A stretch of DNA of 64,000 bases from positions 1-64,000 of the forward strand of contig JANWZN010000002.1 of assembly GCA_025054575.1 (NCBI GenBank), read 5' to 3'. This document shows positions 16,424-20,786 of this stretch, piece by piece. A program made the position numbers and the translations under genes. The notes beneath the pieces were generated by a model that was given only the letters and a program-made list of their open reading frames with translations, did not search any database and was not told the DNA's origin. This DNA comes from Geminicoccaceae bacterium. Its GTDB lineage: Bacteria > Pseudomonadota > Alphaproteobacteria > Geminicoccales > Geminicoccaceae. Numbering within the stretch: the first letter of the stretch is position 1; the number at the start of each line of letters is the position of its first letter.

Positions 16424-17134
16424 ATGTCCCGCATCGAGGCCGTGGCAGCGGACGGGGTCGGCATCGCCTGGCCCGGCCCCACCGACTGGGTCCAGTTCGG
16501 CCGCGCGGTCGGCCGACGCAAGTTGCTCCTGCTCCGCTTCGCCCTCTTGAACCTCGTGGCGGCAGCCCTGCTCGCCGCCGCGGCGGCGCAGGGCTGGCTC
16601 GACGAGATGATCGAAAGCGACCGGCTGCATCTCGTCAAGCTCATCTGCCTCGTCTTCCTCGTGGGTCTCGCGAGTGCGGGCTGGCGAGCGGCCAAGCTCA
16701 GCACCGAGCTCGACGCGCTCGAGGCCGGGCGCGCGGAGCCCGGCTCCAAGGCCGCCTGGTTCCTGGCCGCGACAGCCGGCAAAGACGCGGCCGGGCGCGC
16801 GGCGATGGCGGCTCTGTTGCGCTTGAAGCTCGGCCAACGCCTGGCGCACCTGCGCTACCTCGCCAACCTCCTGGTGTTGCTGGGCCTGATCGGCACGGTC
16901 GTGGGCTTCATCCTGGCGCTCGCCGGAATCGATCCCGCGACCGTGGGCGACCCTTCGGCGATCGGTCCCATGGTCTCGCGGCTGTTGGAAGGGATGGCGG
17001 TCGCACTCTATACGACCCTCGCCGGCTCGCTCCTCAACATCTGGTTGTCTCTGAACTGCCGATTTCTCGAGGGCGGCACGGCCCATCTCTACGCCCGACT
17101 CGTCGAGCGGAGCGAGAACGATGCGCGGCTTTGA
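16424..17134 (+). CDS. MotA/TolQ/ExbB-family proton-channel-like protein
   Basis: 236-residue inner-membrane protein with four helices at about residues 35-57, 70-88, 147-168 and 191-212. The ExbB/TolQ/MotA channel signature is seen in the third helix (LGLIGTVVGFILAL) and the fourth (GMAVALYTTLAGSLLNIWL), which in the family form the proton path around the ExbD/TolR/MotB helix. The ATG at 16424 follows AGGGAG. It overlaps the next gene by 14 nt. The partner is not a standard ExbD but a protein with one ExbD-like helix and a different outer domain, so the energised process is unknown. Confidence 0.82.
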   Translation: MSRIEAVAADGVGIAWPGPTDWVQFGRAVGRRKLLLLRFALLNLVAAALLAAAAAQGWLDEMIESDRLHLVKLICLVFLVGLASAGWRAAKLSTELDALEAGRAEPGSKAAWFLAATAGKDAAGRAAMAALLRLKLGQRLAHLRYLANLLVLLGLIGTVVGFILALAGIDPATVGDPSAIGPMVSRLLEGMAVALYTTLAGSLLNIWLSLNCRFLEGGTAHLYARLVERSENDARL

Positions 17135-17732
17135 GGCCGACGACGAGGCGGACGGCGCGATCGTCTTCCGCGACCTCATCACGCTCGCGCTCGCCGGTTT
17201 CGTCGCCTGCGTGATCCTCATTCTCCCGCACATCAATCCGGCCAAGGCGAAGCCACGCCCCGAGGGCACGGAGCCTCCCGGCAATGTCGTCGTCGAGATC
17301 CGCTGGCCCGATCCGGTCGACGCCGACGTCGATCTCTGGGTGATGGGCCCGGGCGACGTGCCGGTCGGCTACAGCAACAAAGGTGGCCGACTGTTCAATC
17401 TGTTGCGCGACGATCTCGGGCACCGCGGTGACGTCTCCGGCCTCAATTACGAGGTCGCCTATTCCCGCGGGATCGTCGCCGGGGAGTACGTGGTCAACGT
17501 CCACCTCTATCGGGACCAGTCCGGCAAGCTGCCGGTCCCGGTCACGGTCGTCGCGAGCGTCAAGCCGTCGGTCGGCGAGAGCGCCCGCCAGATCGTCGCG
17601 ACCACGATCGAGCTCGGCCGCGAGGGCGAGGAGCGGACCGCGTTCCGCTTCAAGCTCGATGCCGCCGGGGGCCTGCTCCCCGGCAGCGTCCACGACCTCG
17701 CCATGCCGCTGCGCGCCCGGAGACCGTCATGA
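17121..17732 (+). CDS. Single-helix membrane protein with ExbD-like helix and YfaP/DUF2135-like domain
   Basis: 203 residues. One membrane helix (about 19-36) is preceded by Asp18 (FRDLITLALAG) and closed by a Pro-containing PHINP, the same Asp-helix-Pro arrangement as the proton-carrying helix of ExbD/TolR. The remainder is periplasmic: about residues 58-150 form a beta-rich domain with WPDPVDADVDLWVMGPG and GIVAGEYVVNVHLYRD, resembling DUF2135/YfaP-type domains. No peptidoglycan-binding or ExbD C-terminal domain is present. It overlaps the ExbB-like gene by 14 nt and the next gene by 4 nt, so the three products are made together. Function is inferred to be the stator partner; not proven. 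Confidence 0.75.
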   Translation: MRGFEADDEADGAIVFRDLITLALAGFVACVILILPHINPAKAKPRPEGTEPPGNVVVEIRWPDPVDADVDLWVMGPGDVPVGYSNKGGRLFNLLRDDLGHRGDVSGLNYEVAYSRGIVAGEYVVNVHLYRDQSGKLPVPVTVVASVKPSVGESARQIVATTIELGREGEERTAFRFKLDAAGGLLPGSVHDLAMPLRARRPS

Positions 17733-18241
17733 GCCCGCTCGCACCGATCTTTCTCGGGCTCGCGACCGCTGCAGCCGGGCTCGCCTGGATCGCCGTCTGG
17801 GCGCCACGGCGGCCGGCCGTCAAGCTCGCCGCGCTCGGCCTCACCGGCCTCCTCTTGCCACTCGGCTACCTGGCCCTCACCGACCTCTTGGGCCGGCCGA
17901 AGCCGGTGCGCGACGAATGGCTCGCGGCGCGCACGACCGAGGCGGAGGTGCTCGGCTTCGACCTGCAAGAGGGCGAGGCGATCCATCTCTGGCTTCGCCT
18001 GCCCGCAATCGCCGAGCCGCGTGCCTATCGCTTGCCCTGGAGCCTGCCGCTCGCGCGTCAGCTCCAGGACGGCCAGCGGGCGGCCCAGCGAGCCGGCACC
18101 GGGCTCGCGATGCGCCTGCCGTTCGAGCCCTCGCTCGACGATCGCGAGCCCAGGGTCTACCCGTTGCCGCAGCCGGCGGCGCCACCCAAAGAGCTGCCGC
18201 CGCCGCCCGTCGTCCTGCGCGCGCCGAGCGGCGATGCGTGA
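17729..18241 (+). CDS. Uncharacterised membrane-anchored protein of the ExbB-like operon
   Basis: 170 residues with two N-terminal helices (about 5-24 and 30-50) and a soluble C-terminal region ending in a Pro-rich tail (LPPPPVVLRAP). I do not recognise a domain. The ATG overlaps the preceding stop by 4 nt (ATGA), which places it in the same coupled unit as the channel-like protein and the single-helix protein. The Pro-rich tail could span periplasm or bind a partner. Probably an accessory subunit of the same complex. Confidence 0.7.
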   Translation: MSPLAPIFLGLATAAAGLAWIAVWAPRRPAVKLAALGLTGLLLPLGYLALTDLLGRPKPVRDEWLAARTTEAEVLGFDLQEGEAIHLWLRLPAIAEPRAYRLPWSLPLARQLQDGQRAAQRAGTGLAMRLPFEPSLDDREPRVYPLPQPAAPPKELPPPPVVLRAPSGDA

Positions 18242-18672: not shown

Positions 18673-19590
18673 TCAGCGATCGCGAGCCGCCGCCGGCGAG
18701 GCCGTTCGGCGCGCGAGCTCGGCCAGATCGAGCCGGTAGAGCCAGAGCCCGCTCGCCACGATCACGACCGCGCCCGCGAGCGTCCAGGGCGAAGGAACGT
18801 CGCCGAAAACGAGATAGGAAGCACCCATCGCCCAGACCAACTGCAGATAGTTGAACGGGCTCACGCGCGAGGCTTCGCCACGCCGCAGCGCCAGGATGAT
18901 CATGAGATGCCCGGCCGCGCCCATGAGCCCGGTCGCCGCCATGAGCGCCAGATCGAGAGGGGTCGGCGTCGTCCATCCCCAGGGCAAGAGAAGCGTGAAC
19001 AAGACGGCACCGACGAGCCCGCTGAACAGCAACGAGACCAGGGGTTCGGCCTCGCGCACCATGCGCGTGCTGATCTGGTAGACCGCGTAGGCCGCAGCAC
19101 AGCCGAGCGCGAGCCAAGCGCCGGGTCCGAGGCCGGCGCCGGTCGGCCGGACGATCAAAAGCGCGCCGCAAAAGCCGGTCGCGATCGCGAGCCAGCGCAC
19201 GAGCCCGACGCGCTCGCGCAAGATCGCGACCGCGAGCGCCGCCACCAGGATCGGCGACAGGAAGGTGATCGCCGCCACGTCGCCGAGCGGCAGGAAGAGC
19301 AGTGCCGTGAAATTGAGCACCGTGCTGGCGCCGAGCAGCACGCTGCGCAAGAGTTGAATGCCGAGTTGGCGCGTGCGCACGGCACCCGCCACCGCCTGCG
19401 GGATGAAGAGCGCGACGAAGGCGACGTGGAAGAAGGTCCGGCCCCAAAGGATCATCAAGATCGGGTAGCGGGCGGTGAGCGCCTTGACGATCGCGTTCAT
19501 GCTGGCGAACAGGAACCCGCCCGCCGTGACGAGCCCGATCGCGACCACGAGATTGCGTCTGCCTTCGTCCATCCGCCCTTCCGCCGTCAT
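18673..19590 (-). CDS. DMT-family (EamA) drug/metabolite transporter
   Basis: 305-residue inner-membrane protein with ten helices in two EamA repeats (first about 15-140, second about 150-295). The pattern LGASTVLNFTALLFLPLGD followed by ITFLSPILVA is typical of the RhaT/YdcZ-like exporter group. An alternative start at 19572 (MDEGRR) lies just after GGAAGGG and would remove six residues; I keep the longer form but either is possible. Substrate is unknown. Confidence 0.88.
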   Translation of the reverse strand: MTAEGRMDEGRRNLVVAIGLVTAGGFLFASMNAIVKALTARYPILMILWGRTFFHVAFVALFIPQAVAGAVRTRQLGIQLLRSVLLGASTVLNFTALLFLPLGDVAAITFLSPILVAALAVAILRERVGLVRWLAIATGFCGALLIVRPTGAGLGPGAWLALGCAAAYAVYQISTRMVREAEPLVSLLFSGLVGAVLFTLLLPWGWTTPTPLDLALMAATGLMGAAGHLMIILALRRGEASRVSPFNYLQLVWAMGASYLVFGDVPSPWTLAGAVVIVASGLWLYRLDLAELARRTASPAAARDR

Positions 19591-19637
19591 CGGCCCGCGC
19601 GACGAAGGCTTCCTCGCAGAGCCGGAGGCAACGAGCC

Positions 19638-20786
19638 ATGCTGCATTTCGACGAGGCCGAGTTCGCCGCGCGCAAGGGCCGTACGCTCGCGGCGATGGGC
19701 GAGAGCGGCATCGACGCGCTGCTGCTGTTCAAGCAGGAGAGCATGTACTGGCTCACCGGCTACGACAGCTTCGGCTTCTGTTTCTTCCAGTGCCTCGTGC
19801 TGACGGCCGCGGGCGATTTCGTGTTGCTCACCCGAGCGCCCGATCTGCGGCAAGCGCAGCTCACCTCGATCCTCGGCGACATCCGCGTCTGGGAAGACCG
19901 TGAGGGGGCCGACCCGACCCGCGAGCTGCGCGCGTTGCTCGAGGCCAAGGGACTTTCGGGCAAGCGTCTCGGAATCGAATGGGAGGCGCACGGGCTCACG
20001 GCCGCGCACGGCATGCGGCTCGCCGTGCAGCTCGACGGCTTCGCCCGCATGGTCGACGCCTCGCGGCTGGTGAGCCGGCTCCGGCTGGTCAAGTCCGCGG
20101 CCGAGCTCGCCTTCGTACGCAAGGCAGGTGAACTCGCCGATGCGGCGCTCGCGGCCGCGATCGCCCATGCCCGTCCCGGCGCCGAGGAGGGTGTGGTCTT
20201 GGCGCGGATGCACGATGCGATCTTCGAGGCCGGCGGCGACTACCCCGCCAACCCGTTCATCATCGGCTCCGGCCGCGAGGCCCTCTTGTGTCGCTACCAT
20301 GCCGGCCGCCGACAGCTCGATGCCGAGGACCAGCTGACCCTGGAGCTCGCCGGTGTCTGGCGGCAATATCATGCCTGTTTGATGCGCACGCTGCTGATCG
20401 GCCCGGTGCATCCCGAGCATGCGCGCATGCTCGAGATCTGCCGGGAGGCGCTCGCTGCTTGCGAAGATCGACTGCGCCCGGGTCGCACCATCGGCGAGGT
20501 ATTCGCCGCCCACGCCGAGACCTTCGACCGCAACGGATTGCGCGCGCATCGGCTCAACGCGTGCGGCTATTCGCTCGGGGCCGTCTACGCGCCTTCCTGG
20601 ATGGATTGGCCGATGATCTATGCCGACAATCCGGTCGTTCTCGAGCCGGGCATGGTCTTCTTTCTGCACATGATCCTAGCCAATTCCGAGACCGGCCGGG
20701 CGATGACCCTCGGGCGGACGGCGATCGTGACCGAAGGCGCGCCCGAGATCCTCTCGCGGCTGCCGCTCGAGGCCGCGGTCCGCTGA
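19638..20786 (+). CDS. M24-family pita-bread hydrolase lacking the metal site (creatinase/ectoine-hydrolase-like)
   Basis: 382-residue protein with the two-domain aminopeptidase P/creatinase fold: N-terminal creatinase-like domain (1-145) and a pita-bread domain (about 150-375). The five metal ligands of M24 peptidases are not conserved. The usual D-x-G-A block is LELAGVWRQY, the second Asp is replaced in YHACLMRT, the HGxGH block is GYSLGAV, and the EPG block reads LHMILAN. This excludes a normal metallo-aminopeptidase and points to the metal-free branch that includes creatinase and ectoine hydrolase. Start at 19638 has GGAGG upstream. Neighbouring FAD oxidase and LysR genes may form a small catabolic unit. 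Confidence 0.8.
   Translation: MLHFDEAEFAARKGRTLAAMGESGIDALLLFKQESMYWLTGYDSFGFCFFQCLVLTAAGDFVLLTRAPDLRQAQLTSILGDIRVWEDREGADPTRELRALLEAKGLSGKRLGIEWEAHGLTAAHGMRLAVQLDGFARMVDASRLVSRLRLVKSAAELAFVRKAGELADAALAAAIAHARPGAEEGVVLARMHDAIFEAGGDYPANPFIIGSGREALLCRYHAGRRQLDAEDQLTLELAGVWRQYHACLMRTLLIGPVHPEHARMLEICREALAACEDRLRPGRTIGEVFAAHAETFDRNGLRAHRLNACGYSLGAVYAPSWMDWPMIYADNPVVLEPGMVFFLHMILANSETGRAMTLGRTAIVTEGAPEILSRLPLEAAVR

Follow-up and report, generated by a model that had tools for sequence, protein, structure and literature searches.

Three overlapping genes, here called g1, g2, and g3, lie on the forward strand of the window, by which we mean the whole stretch of 64,000 nucleotides that was analyzed. 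Their features are as follows.

g1, 16424..17134, + strand: 236 aa; MotA/TolQ/ExbB-family channel protein with four predicted helices and a short cytoplasmic loop
g1 helices, residues 34-52, 68-86, 149-167, and 192-210: predicted from hydropathy
g1/g2 overlap, 17121..17134, + strand: 14 nt
g2, 17121..17732, + strand: 203 aa; one membrane helix with the conserved Asp18, then a predicted periplasmic beta domain
Asp18 codon of g2, 17172..17174, + strand: candidate proton-carrying residue, from translation, conservation, and the ExbD/TolR alignment
g2 beta domain, residues about 50-200: DUF2135-related by profile comparison, with a possibly TerD-like fold from an AlphaFold model
g2/g3 overlap, 17729..17732, + strand: ATGA, 4 nt
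g3, 17729..18241, + strand: 170 aa; new family; two helices and a short basic loop
g3, further parts: small beta-rich domain and Pro-rich tail

The preliminary description had proposed three genes overlapping by 14 nt and by 4 nt (ATGA), and the open reading frames were found at those positions. An AGGGAG stretch lies directly upstream of the g1 ATG, and this start position is kept in relatives. The host genome (G000) is fragmented, with 3.55 Mb in 429 contigs, and its closest named relatives are Geminicoccaceae. Because g1 and g2 are conserved side by side across bacterial loci, both chance and a mis-called frame are excluded, and the observed gene arrangement is confirmed as real, with a co-occurrence far beyond chance. 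The window copy is unlikely to derive from a prophage, since gene clusters flanking the trio also occur at other Geminicoccaceae loci. Promoter and terminator scans of the trio region found none, and repeats within it look like chance matches.

The three genes form a unit and are inherited together. In a profile search of 79 bacterial loci, with the profiles built from those same loci, g1 lay directly beside g2 in all 79, with g3 next in 77; an independent single-sequence phmmer search using the window proteins placed g1 beside g2 in 78 of the 79, missing only L082, which the profile recovers. One of the two loci lacking g3 is at a contig end, and the other (L044) has no explanation. Of 60 relatives, 32 carry g2 and 31 carry g3; the two genes share 31 of the 32 g2-positive genomes, and G012 alone differs. 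Pairwise protein distances of g1, g2, and g3 correlate with r of 0.83, 0.87, and 0.78 (130 loci kept of the 141 having all three genes). Clustering of the neighboring genes revealed no fourth gene conserved along with the trio, and no conserved neighbor pointed to a target; for effectors such as ZorC/ZorD or ZorE, which stand beside ZorAB in Zorya, the evidence is this clustering. The phylogenetic profile thus shows strict co-occurrence, and g1 is the reverse of the standalone membrane protein against which the preliminary description had weighed its proposal.

At the level of the phylum, g2 is matched in 29 of 397 genomes; in five of these, the match is weak (E 7e-9 to 4e-4) and falls in frames of 577-1150 aa. 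In the genus to which G092 belongs, taken here for Mesorhizobium by resemblance to the named loci L036, L039, and L055, g2 is present in 68 of 79 genomes (one copy is a fragment), which indicates a long-kept gene there. Bacterial copies of the trio are mostly single. The window genome also has a separate ExbD/TolR-type gene, its only PF02472 place, and a MotB-type gene, its only PF13677 place, each on a contig other than that of the trio, so the trio is an additional system.

Assignment of the first product to the MotA/TolQ/ExbB family held up: g1 passes the Pfam MotA_ExbB model (PF01618) at 35.2 bits (cut-off 22.9, E 1.2e-8). A profile built from 48 g1 proteins, when compared with solved structures in the PDB, matched MotA (E 3.3e-9), TolQ (4.7e-5), PomA (1.6e-4), ZorA (0.011), and ExbB (0.011), and in the alignment of g1 with MotA, TolQ, PomA, and ZorA, the GT motifs coincide. 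The Thr of this motif is found in 142 of 147 rows covering bacteria and phages; it is absent from g1 of the Verrucomicrobial loci L081 and L087 and of the phage loci L099 and L103. Both Verrucomicrobial loci retain the g2 Asp. Against defense systems, g1 scored 18.9 bits with the NCBIfam ZorA model, below its cut-off of 100, and the PADLOC ZorA profiles, with a best E of 1.7e-6, were its top match in the defense library.

Hydropathy gave four helices in the window g1 and in 40 of 48 g1 members, and three in the other eight. Basic residues average 2.6, 4.0, and 2.5 in the N-terminal, middle, and C-terminal loops and 0.8 and 1.2 in the remaining loops, from which both ends of g1 are predicted to be inside. 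ExbB has three helices, whereas the MotA topology consists of four with both ends inside; the predicted topology of g1 is therefore MotA-like and differs from that of ExbB. Of the earlier label "ExbB-like operon," the channel family stands and the ExbB topology does not.

The second product had been described as having a single helix with an Asp at its start and a PHINP end, matching the proton-carrying helix of ExbD/TolR. These elements are present, the Asp being Asp18 near the start of the helix, and a profile of the g2 helix aligned with ExbD/TolR helices (19 proteins from related genomes) at a score of 21.5 (Prob 75.9), with Asp placed on Asp. As controls, the best of 100 column shuffles scored 15.0, and six other helices from the module scored 9.7 or less; the likeness to ExbD therefore lies above all 100 shuffles, and the contrary outcome named in the preliminary description, a helix unrelated to ExbD, did not occur. 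By comparison, the score against the MotB helix (14.7) lies inside its shuffle range (maximum 15.8), and an ExbD comparison using whole proteins was weak (Prob 24.8). Of 152 rows from bacteria and phages, 151 have a residue in the Asp18 column, and in 146 of these it is Asp. The five exceptions have Ala and belong to one gammaproteobacterial lineage (L070, L084, L085, L088, and L090), in which g2 has an Asp four positions before. Two of these loci, L085 and L088, each have two tandem copies of g3.

For the periplasmic part of g2, the window protein (P0002) reached no Pfam cut-off; it scored 11.8 bits with DUF2135 (PF09906), under the cut-off of 22. Nine of 37 g2 family members match DUF2135 at E up to 0.1, the best at 6.6e-5, and an hhalign comparison of 71 g2 proteins with nine DUF2135 proteins gave Prob 96.4 and E 1.4e-9. 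By profile comparison, the relationship to DUF2135 is clear, although the window protein by itself falls below the Pfam cut-off. Pfam searches of the window g2 at E up to 1 matched neither the ExbD domain (PF02472) nor MotB_plug or the OmpA-like peptidoglycan domain, in agreement with the original proposal of a DUF2135-type domain in place of an ExbD or OmpA domain.

The possibly TerD-like fold of this domain is a point beyond the preliminary description. An AlphaFold model of g2 (pLDDT 85.5) aligned in VIA with SAV2460 (2qng; Z 9.0, rmsd 4.0, 134 aligned) and with the TerD homolog 2qz7 (Z 8.3, rmsd 4.4, 135 aligned), scores which may in both cases reflect a common arrangement only. These two are among the top three VIA rows, with 9a6r tied at Z 8.5. 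The TerD sequence profile was not significant against g2 (hhalign Prob 0.1). Residues W62, D69, D71, D97, D98, G100, and E111 are invariant in g2 and are similar to the invariant acidic motif of TerD. A Foldseek search of the model against the PDB returned nothing at E 0.001 or better, and its first row is a calcium-bound protein (E 2.1e-3). The acidic motif and this first row make metal binding by the g2 domain plausible. BFVD yielded two matches (E about 6e-4), of which one bears the name "BACON domain-containing protein" and the other is nameless. The TerD and DUF2135 families were absent from the relatives searched (21 and 40).

The third product matched nothing in Pfam, NCBIfam, or PADLOC and represents a new family. 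The proposed two-helix protein coupled by ATGA was borne out: 54 of 55 members have two helices, and the ATGA lies at 17729-17732. Its domain is probably periplasmic, because basic residues are present in the short inter-helix loop and none in the N-terminal stub. For the AlphaFold model of g3 (pLDDT 81.6), Foldseek found nothing in the PDB at E 0.001 or better, and VIA gave weak rows (Z at most 7.5, largely from helices; the domain reached at best Z 5.9, with eIF5A), so we claim no fold. TonB and TolA differ from g3, which has two helices, not one, and lacks the C-terminal TonB/TolA domain by Pfam.

Phages carry the trio as well, a finding that goes beyond the preliminary description. Searching 50,697 phage records with single g2 proteins returned 19, 22, 21, and 27 records, the last list including the others; these 27 records correspond to 19 distinct phages by name, all of Rhizobium or Sinorhizobium, and the isolated rhizobiophages with the module include 16-3 and P10VF. 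Phages RL38JI and RL2RES are called virulent in a paper title (PMC7067960). Profiles found the complete trio in five of seven named rhizobiophage loci examined. In the other two, RHph_N34 and P10VF, the search at E 0.001 did not recover g3, though g2 is followed by a gene similar to it in length; BLAST grouped that of RHph_N34 with the g3 cluster. In IMG/VR, 68 contigs match g2 and 59 of them have the complete trio, while most of the remaining nine end at a contig edge. In L105 and L106, another gene occupies the g1 position, beyond the reach of the g1 profile; the hydrophobic product at L106:3513-3971 has neither a GT motif nor a Pfam match and is perhaps a strongly diverged g1. Genes for T4-type gp32 and gp59 on some trio-bearing IMG/VR contigs identify those contigs as viral, and L101 and L102, the IMG/VR contigs closest to bacterial copies, might be host DNA. 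A tree of 141 g2 proteins requires seven virus-bacterium changes, at least four of them imposed by branches with good support; several rows sit on long branches, which leaves single placements unsure. In PHROGs, the window proteins were unmatched, and two phage g2 proteins gave weak matches to families of unknown function.

We clustered the genes around the trio in 74 viral or phage loci, taking Pfam names from one member per cluster; many of the stretches are short. The most frequent neighbors include a trypsin-like protease cluster (17 loci), DUF992 (14), SbmA/BacA (9), and a cell-wall hydrolase cluster, c17 (seven loci; one member Hydrolase_2 by Pfam). A further cluster, c36, which we take to be lysozyme-like, is found in four. 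Together these neighbors point to the envelope.

We infer that a proton-powered machine is the best-supported reading of the trio. Judged from sequence and by analogy, it is fairly probable that the three genes encode a tripartite, proton-motive-force-driven inner-membrane machine of the ExbBD/TolQR/MotAB/ZorAB kind that works on the envelope. In such a machine, g1 would form a MotA/ExbB-type ring, by analogy a pentamer, and a g2 dimer would thread it, a stoichiometry modeled on the 5:2 motors treated in passages of PMC9389320. Asp18 of g2 would take up and release protons, the presumed proton flow driving movement, and the DUF2135/TerD-like domain, probably metal-binding, would pass this motion to an envelope target. 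By analogy alone, g3 would be the third subunit, in the place that TonB/TolA has beside ExbBD/TolQR; sequence and fold comparison found no link between g3 and TonB/TolA. That phages, virulent ones included, carry a complete three-subunit motor for mechanical envelope work and have swapped it repeatedly with their hosts is possible, and we put it forward tentatively. Our guess at its most likely use there is remodeling or guarding of the host envelope during infection, for example, exclusion of a second phage.

Several known systems share parts of this design. ExbB-ExbD-TonB and TolQ-TolR-TolA, like the trio, set a MotA_ExbB-family protein beside a one-helix partner with an Asp and a third membrane protein; in contrast to ExbBD/TolQR, g1 has four predicted helices and g2 has the DUF2135/TerD-like domain replacing the ExbD fold, and g3, as far as tested, is without a link to TonB/TolA. 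The MotAB and PomAB stators resemble g1 in their four-helix channel protein with both ends inside and in the GT and TT motifs, but the cytoplasmic loop of g1 is short and no OmpA-like peptidoglycan domain was found in g2. ZorAB of Zorya belongs to the same channel family as g1 and is its best defense-library match; however, g1 has 236 aa where the ZorA profiles have 461-780, g2 lacks a ZorB-type domain, and here the phages themselves carry the trio. YfaP-type DUF2135 proteins share with the g2 domain the motif W...DxD...D...G..E...GxY, whereas those sampled are larger (about 270-560 aa) and their domain is not fused to a proton-channel-type helix. The TerD family shares a similar acidic motif and perhaps the fold (VIA Z 8.3-9.0, a level that a common arrangement by itself can reach), but its sequence profile is not significant and g2 adds a membrane helix.

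The known ion-driven motors of this type come in few kinds, namely flagellar stators, Ton, Tol, gliding motors, and Zorya. If the proposal is true, the list would be widened by a kind whose output domain is of a metal-binding type and which bacteria, rhizobial phages, and environmental phages all maintain as a unit, and it would raise the question of why a phage should need its own proton-driven envelope machine. A 2025 survey treats MotAB homologs as generic ion transporters to which domains have been added; DUF3450 and DUF2341 are named there, and DUF2135 is not in the passages that name them (PMC12505986). The open-access literature, with subscription papers and preprints outside it, yielded nothing on ExbB with DUF2135, Rhizobium phage with ExbB, or TerD with DUF2135; among the papers returned by wider searches, none presents the trio in its title or the opening of its abstract, and those returned for DUF2135/YfaP held nothing relevant. 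The words ExbB and MotA are absent from PMC10460002 (phage AP-16-3) and PMC10783043 (alphaproteobacterial phages).

The same components could instead act as a sensor or gate and not as a force generator, a ZorAB-like or Ter-like device in which the metal-binding-type domain of g2 would sense that the envelope is disturbed or that a phage is entering, and the device would then open a path for ions; phages would use it to exclude competitors, and bacteria would keep it for stress. We regard this as unlikely. The PADLOC match of ZorA profiles to g1 and the possibly TerD-like fold of g2 are consistent with it, as is the proposal, in passages of a jumbo-phage survey, that Ter systems act against superinfecting phages (PMC7824862). 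So is the position of the trio in P10VF and RHph_N34, with a topoisomerase or gyrase gene on one side and a sigma-factor gene on the other. However, g2 has no ZorB-type peptidoglycan domain, no conserved fourth gene accompanies the trio, PADLOC matched neither g2 nor g3, the TerD profile was not significant, and its occurrence in most genomes of a single genus (68 of 79) is unlike a mobile defense system.

That the trio is a phage lysis or release device, its channel depolarizing the membrane or its g2 and g3 domains disrupting the outer membrane, with the bacterial copies domesticated, seems to us quite improbable. The hydrolase and lysozyme-like neighbors would fit such a role, but within the stretches retrieved, often short ones, 63 of the 74 loci have neither cluster. 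The bacterial copies, mostly single and kept across a genus, also speak against it. In RHph_N3_19, moreover, the trio lies among DNA-metabolism genes; with P10VF and RHph_N34, this places it amid replication, transcription, and DNA-metabolism genes in three named phages, which argues against a plain lysis cassette. We consider it very improbable that these are ordinary membrane proteins of channel-family ancestry that have lost ion coupling: the Asp or the Thr is missing in some lineages, but the conservation of both across bacteria and phages, in all but five rows each, argues against such a loss. The proton-powered machine remains the reading that we prefer.

The layout of the locus varies in places. 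On contig C38 of G046, g3 precedes g2 on the same strand (18801-19271 and 19417-19986), a changed gene order, and in Mesorhizobium kowhaii, the trio is present twice, on separate contigs (L039 and L041). Among the viral loci, an SbmA/BacA-type peptide-transporter gene directly follows g3 in L137 (7016-7981) and in L163-L165 (Pfam E 3.5e-123, one member), and in L124, a gene of this type stands before g1. The DUF992 cluster encodes a secreted protein and, on its 14 viral contigs, lies mostly directly before the trio (for example, L158:3469-3924).
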